From assembly GCF_023913515.1 (NCBI RefSeq), contig NZ_CP099391.1, forward strand, positions 620,001-684,000: a stretch of 64,000 nt of DNA, given 5' to 3'. This DNA is from Natronococcus sp. CG52. Its GTDB lineage: Archaea; Halobacteriota; Halobacteria; Halobacteriales; Natrialbaceae. Below are positions 9,340 through 22,293 of this stretch, piece after piece. The notes under the pieces were generated by a model. The model worked only from the letters and a program-made list of their open reading frames with translations. It did no database searches and was not told the origin of the DNA. The translations under genes and the position numbers were made by a program. Each line of letters begins with the position of its first letter. Position 1 is the first letter of the stretch.

Positions 9340-9904
9340 CGTTCTCCTCGCCCTCGGTGGTGCCGGTTTCCGTCTCCGACGACTCCTCGCTCGTGCCCTC
9401 GCGGGCGAGGATCACGAGGTGGCGCGCCTCCGGCAGGATGATCTCCTCGAGGCCGAGTCGGACCGCGTCGCGGTTACCGGGGAGACAGAACACCGGCACC
9501 TCCTCGGAGACGCCCGCGGCCGTTCGTGCGGCGACGACCTGGGTTCCGAACTCCTCGTAGGCGACCGTCGTGAACAGTTCGCTGAACGCGGTGAGATCCT
9601 TCTCGATCAGCGGATCGACGGCCTCCAGGGTTGCGTCCTCGGGCTCGATACTGGTCCCGCCGCTGGTGACGATCATATCGACGTCGTCACGGTCGACCAG
9701 TCGGGAGACGACCGACTGGATCTTGTCGTAGTCGCTGTCGATGTGTTCCTGCATGACGACCTCGCAGCCGTTCTCCTCGAGGACCGTGGCGATCTCGGCG
9801 GCGGCGGCGCCGGTGTCGATGGAGCGATTCGTCGCGACGGTGACGAGGCCGGTCCCGATCGGACCGCCGATCGGGCCGTTTTCTTCCTCGTTCGACTGGG
9901 TCAT
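9326..9904 (-). CDS. moaB: Molybdenum cofactor biosynthesis protein MoaB/MogA
   Basis: This 192-residue protein has the MoCF-binding fold. The signature TSGGTS is at 80-85, within MIVTSGGTSIEPED, and the CLPGN motif follows later. The family adenylylates molybdopterin before molybdate insertion. The C-terminal tail is Glu-rich. It overlaps the downstream FTHF cyclo-ligase gene by 14 bp. Confidence 0.93.
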   Translation of the reverse strand: MTQSNEEENGPIGGPIGTGLVTVATNRSIDTGAAAAEIATVLEENGCEVVMQEHIDSDYDKIQSVVSRLVDRDDVDMIVTSGGTSIEPEDATLEAVDPLIEKDLTAFSELFTTVAYEEFGTQVVAARTAAGVSEEVPVFCLPGNRDAVRLGLEEIILPEARHLVILAREGTSEESSETETGTTEGEENDADE

Positions 9905-10019
9905 ACGCTCCGTTCGAGGAGCGGTGAGTAAAACGCTGGCAAACCGTCTTCATCGTCTTCCCCCGATGACACTTCGTCGACCCAACTGTTATGCTCGTGG
10001 TTTCCGTCGGACGACGTGT

Positions 10020-11060
10020 ATGCAAGCGGTCAAAGTCACCGAACACGGCGACACCGGCGTCATCGAGTACGGCGAGTATCCCGATCCCGAGGTGGGCCGC
10101 AACGAGGTGCTGGTCGACGTGAAAGCCGGCGCGCTCAACCACCTCGACGTGTGGGTGCGCCGCGGACTGCCGACGCTCGACCTCGAGATGCCCCACGTAC
10201 CGGGCAGCGACGCCGCCGGCGTCGTCGAGGAGGTCGGGGAGGACGTCACGCGCTTCGAACCCGGTGACCGCGTCGCGCTCACGGCGGGGGTCAACTGCGG
10301 TGACTGCGAGTTCTGCCGCGACGGCGATCCGACGCTCTGTGTCAACTTCCACCTGATCGGCGAACACGTCCCCGGCGTCCACGCCGAGTACGCCGCGGTT
10401 CCCGAGAACAACCTCATACCGGTCCCCGAGGGCGTCGACTGGATCACCGCCGGTTCGACCTCGCTCGTCTTCCAGACCGCCTGGCGACTGCTGATCGACC
10501 GCGCGGATCTCGAGGCCGGCGAGAAGGTGCTCGTCCTGGGCGCGAGCGGCGGCGTCGGACACGCGGCCGTCCAGATCGCCGACTACGCGGGCGCGGAGGT
10601 GTACGCCACCGGCAGCACGGAGACGAAACTCGAGCACGCCCGCGAACTCGGCGCGGACCGCGTCGTCAACTACGAGCAACGGAACTTCGCGGAGTGGGTC
10701 CGCAGCGAGACCGGCGGCCGGGGCGTCGACGTCGTCGTCGACTACATCGGCGCCGGCACCTGGCGCGACTCGATCAAGAGCCTCGCGAAGAACGGCCGAC
10801 TGGTGACCTGCGGCGGGACGGCCGGCGGAAACCCCGAGACCGACATTCCGCGGATCTTTTGGAACCAGCTGCAGATCATCGGCTCGACCATGGGGACGCC
10901 GGGCCAGGTCGACGACGTGATGGAACTCGTCTGGGACGGCACCTTCGAACCCGCGGTCCGCGAGGTGTTGCCGATGAGCGAGACCGCGCGCGCCCACGAG
11001 ATCATCGAATCCCGCGAGGGGTTCGGCAAGGTCGTCGTCCGCCCGGACAGCGAACTGTAG
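10020..11060 (+). CDS. Zinc-binding dehydrogenase of the quinone-reductase-like MDR type
   Basis: This 346-residue medium-chain dehydrogenase/reductase has a GroES-like N-terminal domain with structural-zinc cysteines C93, C96, C99 and C107. A Rossmann domain follows with GASGGVGHAA. The usual catalytic-zinc cysteine is replaced by the ALNHLD stretch at 38-43, so it resembles quinone oxidoreductases more than true alcohol dehydrogenases. NAD(P)H is the expected cofactor; the substrate is unknown. The start is the ATG at 10020, giving the typical MQAVKVTEHG. Confidence 0.92.
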   Translation: MQAVKVTEHGDTGVIEYGEYPDPEVGRNEVLVDVKAGALNHLDVWVRRGLPTLDLEMPHVPGSDAAGVVEEVGEDVTRFEPGDRVALTAGVNCGDCEFCRDGDPTLCVNFHLIGEHVPGVHAEYAAVPENNLIPVPEGVDWITAGSTSLVFQTAWRLLIDRADLEAGEKVLVLGASGGVGHAAVQIADYAGAEVYATGSTETKLEHARELGADRVVNYEQRNFAEWVRSETGGRGVDVVVDYIGAGTWRDSIKSLAKNGRLVTCGGTAGGNPETDIPRIFWNQLQIIGSTMGTPGQVDDVMELVWDGTFEPAVREVLPMSETARAHEIIESREGFGKVVVRPDSEL

Positions 11061-17339: not shown

Positions 17340-18530
17340 TCAGCGGTCCCCAGTGACGATGTCCGCGACGCGCTGGCGGTCGAACAGCCGCTCGTCGGCC
17401 GGGATATCGGGATAGGATTCGGCGGCCACGTAGCCCGGCCACTCGCCGAACCGTTCCGGATAGAGCTGTTTGGCGGTCATCTCGAGTTGGAACAGATTCA
17501 TGAGCGGACCCTGATAGCGCATTCCGCCGGCGACGACGCGTTCGTTCCGGACTGCGGTCAGATCGCTGCCGACGGGGTGGTCCTCGAGTGCGTCGCGAAC
17601 GCTCTCGATGGAGTACTGCGGCGTGATTCCCCAGAGGTGGAGGATAACATCCGGATCGGCTTCGGCCATCGCCTCGTAGTCCAGGACCCCCCAGTCGCCC
17701 GACCACTCGCGGTCGGCGAGGGCGTCGCGTGCGCCGAGCGGTCGCGTGTCCGCTTGCCAGAAGCCGGGTGCGTTGAGGTGGTAGGTGTAGAACTCGCCGT
17801 CACCGAGCGTGACCCGCGCGGCCGTCGGCCGTTCGCTCTCGGGCGGGAGGTTCGACTCGATATGCGACCGGAGGTCGTCGTACGCCGCCTCGAGCGCCTC
17901 GTAACGCTCGCGTTCCTGAAAAACCGCGGCAACCGTTTCGAAGAGTTCCCAGAGCGTGTAGTACTCGTAGCTGTCGGCGTACGCGTCCGCCGGGTCGCTG
18001 TGAACGCCGCTGTGAAAGTTCCCGACCCACGGGCCGATCGACTCGGCTATTTCGTCGATATCGGATTCGTCCCAGTCGCCCTCGGTCGTCAGCACGTACG
18101 ACGGATCGAGGAAGTGAACGTCGCTATCGAGGTCGTAAAGCCGTTCTCTGACGAGTCCCTGCTCGAGCGGATTCGACAGGCCGTCCCACTCGAAGCCGAC
18201 GCCCTCGAGGTGGTCGTAGAACGAGTTCATCGTCGGCCCCGCCATCTCGGGTGCGAACAGGGTGTTTGCCGCCTCGTCGTGGCCGAGTGCGACCATCATG
18301 TCCGCGTACTGTGGAAACGTGACGAAGGCGTTCTCGGGAACGTCGTCGAACTCGACTTCACCCGCGGGAGCCATCGTTACCGTGTACGGATCGTTCGTTG
18401 CGGTGTCGTCCTCGTTCGATTCTCCGGGATCGGTTCCGCTCACACACCCGGCCACGGCTGCGCTGCCGACTGCGACGCTCGTCGCGATCACCTCTCGTCT
18501 GGTTCGATCGAACCCGCTTGCTCTCCTCAT
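17340..18530 (-). CDS. ABC transporter substrate-binding lipoprotein, iron/siderophore type
   Basis: This 396-residue precursor has a twin-arginine-like N-terminus (DRTRREVIATSVAVGSAAVA) ending in a lipobox with AGC, so it should be anchored outside the membrane. The body fits the two-lobed class III periplasmic-binding fold (FYDHLEGVGFEWDG, DPDVILHLWGITPQ). Two DtxR-like iron boxes flank its promoter, supporting an iron-chelate ligand. No permease or ATPase gene is adjacent in the window. Confidence 0.85.
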   Translation of the reverse strand: MRRASGFDRTRREVIATSVAVGSAAVAGCVSGTDPGESNEDDTATNDPYTVTMAPAGEVEFDDVPENAFVTFPQYADMMVALGHDEAANTLFAPEMAGPTMNSFYDHLEGVGFEWDGLSNPLEQGLVRERLYDLDSDVHFLDPSYVLTTEGDWDESDIDEIAESIGPWVGNFHSGVHSDPADAYADSYEYYTLWELFETVAAVFQERERYEALEAAYDDLRSHIESNLPPESERPTAARVTLGDGEFYTYHLNAPGFWQADTRPLGARDALADREWSGDWGVLDYEAMAEADPDVILHLWGITPQYSIESVRDALEDHPVGSDLTAVRNERVVAGGMRYQGPLMNLFQLEMTAKQLYPERFGEWPGYVAAESYPDIPADERLFDRQRVADIVTGDR

Positions 18531-18534
18531 AGGA

Positions 18535-18550
18535 TTTAGGCCTCCCTAAA
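18535..18550. promoter_or_regulatory. DtxR/SirR-like iron box, proximal
   Basis: TTTAGGCCTCCCTAAA is an inverted repeat (TTTAGG/CCTAAA, 4-base spacer) of the DtxR-family type. It lies 5 bp upstream of the start codon at 18530. With the TATA-like box at about 18551-18562, it covers the expected transcription start. Confidence 0.7.
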
Positions 18551-18562
18551 AGATTAAAAACG
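18551..18562 (-). promoter_or_regulatory. TATA-like box of the ABC binding-protein gene
   Basis: On the minus strand this reads CGTTTTTAATCT, centred about 26 bp from the ATG. That spacing predicts a leaderless transcript. It is sandwiched between the two iron boxes. Confidence 0.55.
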
Positions 18563-18568
18563 GATCGA

Positions 18569-18584
18569 TTTAGGCCGGCCAAAA
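18569..18584. promoter_or_regulatory. DtxR/SirR-like iron box, distal
   Basis: TTTAGGCCGGCCAAAA differs from the proximal box mainly in the spacer and one half-site base. It lies upstream of the TATA-like box. Centre-to-centre distance between boxes is 34 bp, close to three helical turns, so two dimers could sit on the same DNA face. Confidence 0.65.
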
Positions 18585-18659: not shown

Positions 18660-18990
18660 TCGTCGGACCGTCTCACTGCGGTCGAGTTCGTCGAACGCCC
18701 GATCGGGTCGGTTCGTGACCAGCACGTATAGGCCGGCCTCGAGGGCGTCGCGAACGCTGCTTTTCGTATCGGCGACTGTTCAGATGTCGTCACAGAGCCG
18801 ACCGGTCCAGTCGAAACGCCCTCGCTTCGCGTCGACCCGAGTGCGGCTGCGTCGAAGGCGATGATCGGCAGCCGATCGTACAATTCGTAGGCGTCGATCG
18901 TCTCGAGGGTCGCGTCGGTGTCGCCCGTCTCTTCGACCTCGAGATAGATCGAGATATCCGTCTCGGTGGGTTCCTCGAGGCAGCGAACCG
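18660..18990 (-). pseudogene. Decayed glycerophosphodiester phosphodiesterase gene
   Basis: Minus-strand translation gives DISIYLEVEETGDTDATLET and YDRLPIIAFDAAALG, which align with the GDPD encoded at 21478-22293 (DATIFLEVKAAGYTESILET, LDRLVIISFDPAALD). After GPVGSV, about 45 residues are missing and the frame shifts. Then TKSSVRDALEAGLYVLVTNR resumes, matching TKQTVRDVLEVNLDVLVTNR. The N-terminal half, including the catalytic HRG region, is absent. It is thus truncated, internally deleted and frameshifted. Confidence 0.8.
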
Positions 18991-21477: not shown

Positions 21478-22293
21478 CTACGACTCGGCGCGCAGAATCT
21501 CGTACGCGTAATCGGGACGGTTCGTGACGAGAACGTCGAGGTTGACCTCGAGAACGTCGCGGACGGTCTGTTTCGTATCGACGAGTTTCCAGACTCCGGC
21601 AGTGACCGATTCGGTCCGGGCCGCGCTGATGAAATTCGAGACGCCGCGCGGCGCGTAGTGGCTGAACGCCAGATCGGCGCCGCACGCCGCAGCCTCCTCC
21701 GCCAGCCAGGGTGACGGAACCGAACCGATCAGTCCCGTTCTGATCCCGTTGTCTCGCGCGGGGTCGAGCGCCGCGGGATCGAAGGAGATGATCACCAGTC
21801 GATCGAGCAGGTCGTACTCGGCGACGGTCTCGAGTATCGATTCCGTGTATCCGGCGGCTTTCACCTCCAGAAAGATCGTCGCGTCGGACGCCGCGAGTTC
21901 GTCGAGTCCGTCAGACAGTCTGATGAGCGGTTCGCCGTCGATCCTGGCGCCGTCGATCTCGCTCCATGGGGTATTCTGGACCCAGCCGTGCGCCGTCGAA
22001 TCCCAGTCGAGTACGGGGTCGTGGAACAGTACCAGTTCACCGTCGCCGGTTCGTCGGACGTCGAGTTCGACGCCGTCGACGCCGACCTCGAGCGCCGCGC
22101 GAACGGCGGCTCTCGTGTTCGGTGGCGCGAGCCCTTCCGCGCCGCGGTGGCCGACGATTAGCGGGCGATCGCTCGTTACGGTTTCCCCGGTGACCAGCGG
22201 TGTAAGTCCCCAGGCCGACGTCGCCACGATTCCCGCGCCAAACCCGGCCAGTAGCCGTCGACGAGAGAGTGACGGACCGGTTCCGGGAGACAT
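21478..22293 (-). CDS. Glycerophosphodiester phosphodiesterase, exported
   Basis: This 271-residue protein has a Tat signal (SLSRRRLLAGFGAGIVATSA). The catalytic domain includes VGHRGAEGLAPPNTRAAV, GVDGVELDVRRTGDGELVLF and HDPVLD, giving the HR, ExD and H residues of GDPD. It would release sn-glycerol 3-phosphate from glycerophosphodiesters outside the cell. It ends VLVTNRPDYAYEILRAES, the part shared with the pseudogene at 18660. Confidence 0.93.
   Translation of the reverse strand: MSPGTGPSLSRRRLLAGFGAGIVATSAWGLTPLVTGETVTSDRPLIVGHRGAEGLAPPNTRAAVRAALEVGVDGVELDVRRTGDGELVLFHDPVLDWDSTAHGWVQNTPWSEIDGARIDGEPLIRLSDGLDELAASDATIFLEVKAAGYTESILETVAEYDLLDRLVIISFDPAALDPARDNGIRTGLIGSVPSPWLAEEAAACGADLAFSHYAPRGVSNFISAARTESVTAGVWKLVDTKQTVRDVLEVNLDVLVTNRPDYAYEILRAES

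Follow-up and report, generated by a model that had tools for sequence, protein, structure and literature searches.

Two DtxR-type half-site boxes on either side of the core promoter of an orphan FhuD-like gene in Natronococcus are probable operators of the haloarchaeal iron regulon

Two near-identical palindromic boxes flank the core promoter of a substrate-binding lipoprotein gene in the 64-kb stretch of Natronococcus sp. CG52 DNA analysed here (the window). We consider it quite probable that they are operators of a DtxR-family metal-dependent repressor, clamping the core promoter of a leaderless siderophore-receptor gene. In the mechanism we propose, one repressor dimer would bind each box, on either side of the BRE-TATA region. 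The ATG-proximal box 1 would cover the stretch from the TATA box to the start, so that a dimer on it would stand in the way of RNA polymerase; box 2 directly adjoins the BRE, and a dimer there would impede TFB/TBP. With abundant metal (most likely Fe2+), both boxes would be occupied and the gene would be off, while under iron starvation the repressor would be released and the binding protein made. The receptor would then take a ferric siderophore, of the type that the host genome appears to make, to the FecCD permease/ATPase of the siderophore locus. Polymerase blocking by archaeal repressors is reported for MDR1 and Phr, and the passages concerned describe MDR1 of Archaeoglobus fulgidus, an archaeal metal-dependent regulator, as repressing by preventing RNA polymerase recruitment (PMC4158304, PMC2995911); we liken it to the present system by this mode of repression and not by operator layout.

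Table 1. Features of the binding-protein promoter, DUF7331-like loci and boxes of the host genome
Feature	Position	Strand	Remarks
Box 1 (ATG-proximal operator, putative), TTTAGGCCTCCCTAAA	18535..18550		perfect TTTAGG-N4-CCTAAA; 14-mer core 18536-18549
Box 2 (upstream operator, putative), TTTAGGCCGGCCAAAA on +	18569..18584		one mismatch; directly upstream of BRE/TATA region of the minus-strand promoter
TATA-like element, TTTTTAATCT	18551..18560	-	centre about -26 from A of ATG
BRE position, TCGATCCG	18561..18568	-	poor fit to the ATCGGAACG-like block of relatives
Start codon ATG of binding-protein gene	18528..18530	-	read from sequence
Substrate-binding lipoprotein, 396 aa, Peripla_BP_2	17340..18530	-	Pfam PF01497, 47.2 bits (above cut-off)
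DUF7331-like locus, host	G000:C1:1424986-1425027; L039 ~9810-10027	minus	
DUF7331-like locus	L040:10324-10515		
Host box			before ferric-type SBP
Host box			before two-domain permease of ferric-type SBP
Host box			before unlinked TOBE-type ABC ATPase
Host box			before second Peripla_BP_2 gene (siderophore SBP)
Host box			before FecCD permease-ATPase pair
Host boxes, two			before dat-bdb-iucABDC operon (aminotransferase-decarboxylase-IucA-acetyltransferase-monooxygenase-IucC)
Host box			before window gene 17340-18530
Host boxes, two			before two copies of 55-aa DUF7331-like gene next to Dps

The initial annotation of this DNA had placed two boxes at 18535-18584, 34 bp apart centre to centre with a TATA-like box between them, and both coordinates and sequences were confirmed exactly (Table 1). 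Read along the minus strand, the promoter runs TTTTGGCCGGCCTAAA (box 2), TCGATCCG, TTTTTAATCT, TTTAGGGAGGCCTAAA (box 1), TCCT and ATG. Four bases (TCCT) separate box 1 from the ATG, and the gene lies on the minus strand; the palindrome of box 2 is broken at a single base. This promoter has a weak BRE position, with no AA at -34/-33. Between the boxes, aligned relatives have two blocks at constant offsets, one BRE-like (about CGGAAC/CGAAAC) and the other a T/A-rich TATA block, which stands at the matching offset from box 1. The centre of the TATA-like block is some 26 nt upstream of the A of the ATG, and this is the distance at which an archaeal TATA precedes the start site (about -26/-27; PMC4158304); a leaderless transcript is therefore probable, with a predicted start at or next to the ATG.

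A search of the window for TTTAGGN4CCTAAA, allowing up to two mismatches, returns exactly two sites, box 1 and box 2, where 0.17 are expected; two matches were found in one of 100 shuffled windows, with no distance condition imposed. A position weight matrix (PWM) gives 24.4 and 24.5 bits at the two boxes, at most 7 bits anywhere else in the 64 kb, and a mean best score of 1.9 bits in simulated windows, but since it was trained on the box pairs of relatives, with the window's own two boxes in the training set, the scores of these boxes are not independent. The pattern searches of the window, the host genome and 41 related genomes are independent of the matrix, and the host-genome box counts below come from such searches and not from a genome-wide PWM scan.

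To assess conservation, we used 80 relatives of the binding protein from named haloarchaeal genomes, ranging from Natronococcus and Natrinema to Haloferax, Haloarcula and Halobacterium. At least one upstream box is present in 71 of the 80, compared with 0/80 and 1/80 for internal controls, and in 66 of these 71 an in-frame ATG follows the end of the downstream box by 3-8 bp. A box pair 30-38 bp apart is present in 30 of the 80, and of 42 single-box relatives just one has any site with a positive score at 33-38 bp. Thus a degenerate, hidden box 2 is rejected as a general rule, remnants being visible by eye in a few close relatives. From the position of box 1 near the ATG, the number of pairs and the rarity of hidden sites we conclude, on sequence comparison, that the conserved putative operator is box 1, with box 2 as an optional addition that is not essential. 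That box 2 is far less conserved than box 1 also counts against the clamp reading.

The 41 related genomes hold 72 box pairs at 19-49 bp, while a reversed-pattern control gives none. Centre distances are 33-38 bp in 48 of these pairs, 25-26 bp in 18 and other values in six; the interval of 27-32 bp is empty, and just five pairs in these genomes lie 50-80 bp apart. A wider draw from the class adds at least 61 further pairs, whose spacings, transcribed by hand, show the same two peaks, together with five at 28-29 bp among the matches listed. A fixed 34-bp spacing is thus rejected as a strict rule, given that relatives span 33-38 bp and that 25-26 bp and minor 28-29 bp classes exist. In the 33-38 bp class, an ATG follows box 1 by 1-10 bp in 36 of the 48 pairs, and the targets of those 36 include 20 Peripla_BP_2 genes, four SBP_bac_6 genes, three class-III aminotransferases (siderophore-type dat) and one FecCD gene. 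Paired boxes were also seen before genes for DUF7551/DUF7552 proteins (loci L117, L137 and L113) and for DUF5059/plastocyanin-like proteins (L074 and L116), which may belong to the iron regulon with a role in copper or electron transfer.

There are two possible explanations for the spacing. The first, to which we give an even chance, is that it is a by-product of promoter geometry and that the two dimers bind independently, without cooperation. Placing box 1 right after the TATA box and box 2 right before the BRE would alone yield about 34-36 bp, and the existence of the minor 28-29 bp group means that a strict helical phase is not needed. Against this, the 25-26 and 33-38 bp classes are filled in the 41 genomes while the gap between them is empty, and they differ by about one helical turn; such a pattern is suggestive, with the caveat that the 25-26 bp class is mostly one orthologous promoter. 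For this reason, and because 28-29 bp spacings exist, strict helical phasing is not claimed. The second explanation, which we find unlikely though worth stating, is a true spacing rule by which two DtxR half-sites clamp BRE and TATA at 34-36 or 25-26 bp, the dimers being bridged across the promoter. The 34-36 bp class would then belong to siderophore receptors and biosynthesis, and the 25-26 bp class, in which box 2 would overlap the BRE, to the small DUF7331-like gene tail-to-tail with dpsA; the difference of about one helical turn would reflect dimer bridging, for example via C-terminal FeoA domains.

The optional nature of box 2, set beside a nearly universal box 1, could also mean that the two have opposite jobs, with box 1 repressing and box 2 activating through TFB/TBP recruitment, by way of another regulator state or a DtxR paralogue. 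The archaeal regulator TrmBL1/Tgr behaves in this manner, repressing from downstream of the TATA box and activating from upstream of the BRE (PMC4158304), and the weak BRE of the window promoter would suit such an arrangement. We nevertheless regard it as distinctly unlikely, given that box 2 abuts the BRE so closely (1-3 bp in most relatives) that hardly any room is left for TFB, and that one consensus is common to both boxes.

As to the type of operator, the TTAGG-N4-CCTAA core is identical to the first 14 bp of the bacterial DtxR consensus, the 19-bp IdeR/DtxR operator of actinobacteria, TTAGGTTAGCCTAACCTAA (PMC7762939). The haloarchaeal box thus corresponds to the single-dimer half-site of the bacterial operator, an IdeR half-site with two CCTAA repeats having been bound by a single dimer at 78 nM (PMC8464063). 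The overlapping second half-site, at a 5-bp offset, is absent from 139 of 139 boxes, with 4-9 of its 10 positions mismatched, and the classical 19-bp DtxR/IdeR box is therefore rejected. From the half-site match and this absence we infer one dimer per box. Whereas the second dimer site of IdeR/DtxR overlaps the first, that of haloarchaea would lie some 34-36 bp off, beyond the core promoter.

In the 4.74-Mb host genome, TTAGGN4CCTAA occurs at 14 sites, against three for the reversed-pattern control. The contig ends (G000:C1:25615-27045 and 3961909-3963339) repeat each other at an offset of 3936294, an unresolved circular overlap in the assembly; this terminal duplication inflates the count by three, leaving 11 distinct exact boxes. 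Nine of these are at siderophore or ferric-iron uptake genes, including an operon resembling the hexacistronic siderophore operon of Haloferax volcanii (PMC7407949), and the other two lead a DUF7331-like gene beside Dps/ferritin. The refuting outcome named in the initial annotation, no further boxes near iron genes, is thus not what we find. Pairs at 34 bp stand at three host loci, namely 26996/27030, 215523/215557 and the window gene; box 27030 has the ferric SBP gene on one side and a methyltransferase gene on the other, and its target is ambiguous. Boxes are present at two of the four host Peripla_BP_2 genes, the siderophore-like ones only, and at one of two clear FecCD permeases, that of the siderophore locus.

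A FerR (DtxR-family) regulon of haloarchaea was reportedly described by Leyn and Rodionov in 2015. According to the passages on this regulon in a study of Haloferax, every fhu gene is preceded by a ferR signal, and iron starvation raises 5 of the 11 fhuD paralogues more than 4-fold (PMC11349517). Common to that regulon, as far as those passages describe it, and to the present one are a box before fhu genes or orphan fhuD paralogues, siderophore genes and a DtxR-family regulator (PMC11349517). Haloferax volcanii has many siderophore-binding proteins for two permeases, with a ferR signal and induction by iron starvation (PMC11349517); its fhuD paralogues number eleven, compared with two box-bearing fhuD-like paralogues in Natronococcus sp. 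CG52. At the window gene we find a promoter palindrome and a conserved box, which recurs at iron-uptake and siderophore genes of this genome, with a DtxR-family regulator in the genome. Given that the ferR signal and fhuD induction are already published for Haloferax, in the passages cited, the window gene adds a member to a haloarchaeal ferR regulon that is already known. The paired-box geometry is not mentioned in the passages of that study which cite the regulon (PMC11349517), and it may have been described earlier in the literature.

The DUF7331-like gene encodes 55 amino acids (MDVPARR...RPGKxVFTERNNTDGWIATDLxVDLEP) and scores below the Pfam cut-off. A DtxR double box, spaced at 25-26 bp, precedes it, and in most of the haloarchaeal loci that we examined the gene and dpsA are arranged tail-to-tail; the host has another copy, which has a single box and lies beside a second Dps. 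The locus might encode a small protein under iron control, or give rise to a transcript that opposes dpsA.

The candidate repressor is a 226-aa DtxR-family protein of the host genome, with HTH, dimerisation and FeoA domains, and is the only DtxR paralogue with intact metal ligands. When aligned with IdeR it keeps the ancillary ligands H79/E83/H98 and E105/H106, but the primary site has Asp for both IdeR Met10 and Cys102, as in MntR-like proteins (MntR/SloR-like), and the protein scores 206.6 bits with the MntR model vs 113 with DtxR, both below NCBIfam cut-offs. These Asp residues and scores would fit a repressor that senses Mn2+, or both Mn2+ and Fe2+, at the same operators, in which case the gene would not be strictly iron-regulated. 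We hold this to be improbable. All targets are iron-uptake or iron-storage-linked genes, ligands alone are an unsafe guide to metal preference, and the published ferR regulon and Haloferax proteome, in the passages cited, link fhuD paralogues to iron (PMC11349517). Fe2+ is thus the most likely metal, on the strength of the target genes and the Haloferax data and not of the ligands, the primary ones being MntR-like. The iron-dependent DtxR-type repression first proposed stands insofar as such a regulator is present and boxes lie at iron genes; from these we infer the iron response and the paralogue that binds. No box was found near the 226-aa regulator gene within the 16 kb searched in the host genome, which, like the MntR-like character of the protein, counts against the main reading. 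In one relative (L105, G023:C1:628889-628928) the DUF7331-like gene and the gene for a 226-aa-type regulator are divergent, with a 26-bp double box between them, an arrangement that would tie the regulator to its own box. A second host paralogue, of 143 aa, is encoded beside the suf Fe-S assembly cluster (L042:7560-7991; G000:C1 ~891.6 kb); several of its metal ligands are lost in the alignment, and it may therefore be metal-independent.

The binding protein itself has a twin-arginine/lipobox-like leader (TRREVIA...VAGC), read from the sequence, and its AlphaFold2 model (pLDDT 87) has a class III SBP fold. The closest PDB folds are PiaA, YfiY-schizokinen, HtsA (staphyloferrin A), CeuE and FhuD2, with HmuT also among the matches, and a profile search likewise leads to the siderophore-receptor class. 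Sequence and model thus point to an orphan FhuD-like siderophore receptor. Its ligand is probably a ferric siderophore of hydroxamate/citrate (schizokinen) type, a best guess that follows from the receptor folds and the schizokinen-type operon in the host genome.

An iron-chelate ligand for a transporter had been proposed at the outset; the family and fold agree with the ligand, but neither a FecCD permease nor an ATPase adjoins the gene at 17340-18530, whose neighbours are carA and an Lrp/AsnC regulator, and the partner transporter would therefore be encoded elsewhere. The nearest box-bearing FecCD gene (host contig 214109-215092) lies in the siderophore locus, some 423 kb away. Given that this locus holds the only box-bearing FecCD, and that in Haloferax one permease serves many fhuD paralogues (PMC11349517), sharing is likely, and the receptor is probably served by the box-controlled FecCD/ATPase at G000:C1:213-215 kb. 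Just upstream of the boxes, at about 18670-18980 on the minus strand of the window, lies the remnant of a glycerophosphodiester phosphodiesterase gene, in two frames and with 49-60% identity to an intact copy at 21478-22293.

An iron box might report regulation alone, with the protein binding a non-siderophore ligand such as heme or cobalamin, since Peripla_BP_2 also covers heme and B12 receptors and HmuT is among the fold matches. To this we assign about the same low probability as to the manganese signal: among the annotated folds the top matches are siderophore receptors, YfiY with schizokinen being one of them, the siderophore cluster contains the paralogue at 212 kb, and a box-less Peripla_BP_2 gene at 1559130, which adjoins its own FecCD, is a better B12-type candidate. 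That the two boxes are chance palindromes is next to impossible, nothing but the AT-rich promoter context favouring the idea and the window and genome pattern counts, the PWM and above all the conservation in relatives, by which it is already refuted, ruling it out.

Our conclusion is that the finding is correct, well supported and mostly ordinary, and that the class-wide clamp geometry is the part of experimental interest. With fair confidence we can place the window gene in the iron-starvation response and in siderophore uptake, though it stands alone between carA and unrelated genes. The survey further ties to this iron regulon an uncharacterised protein of 55 aa encoded beside dpsA, and it yields a simple, testable architecture in which a bacterial-type repressor would act on archaeal (TBP/TFB) promoters with one dimer on each side of BRE-TATA.
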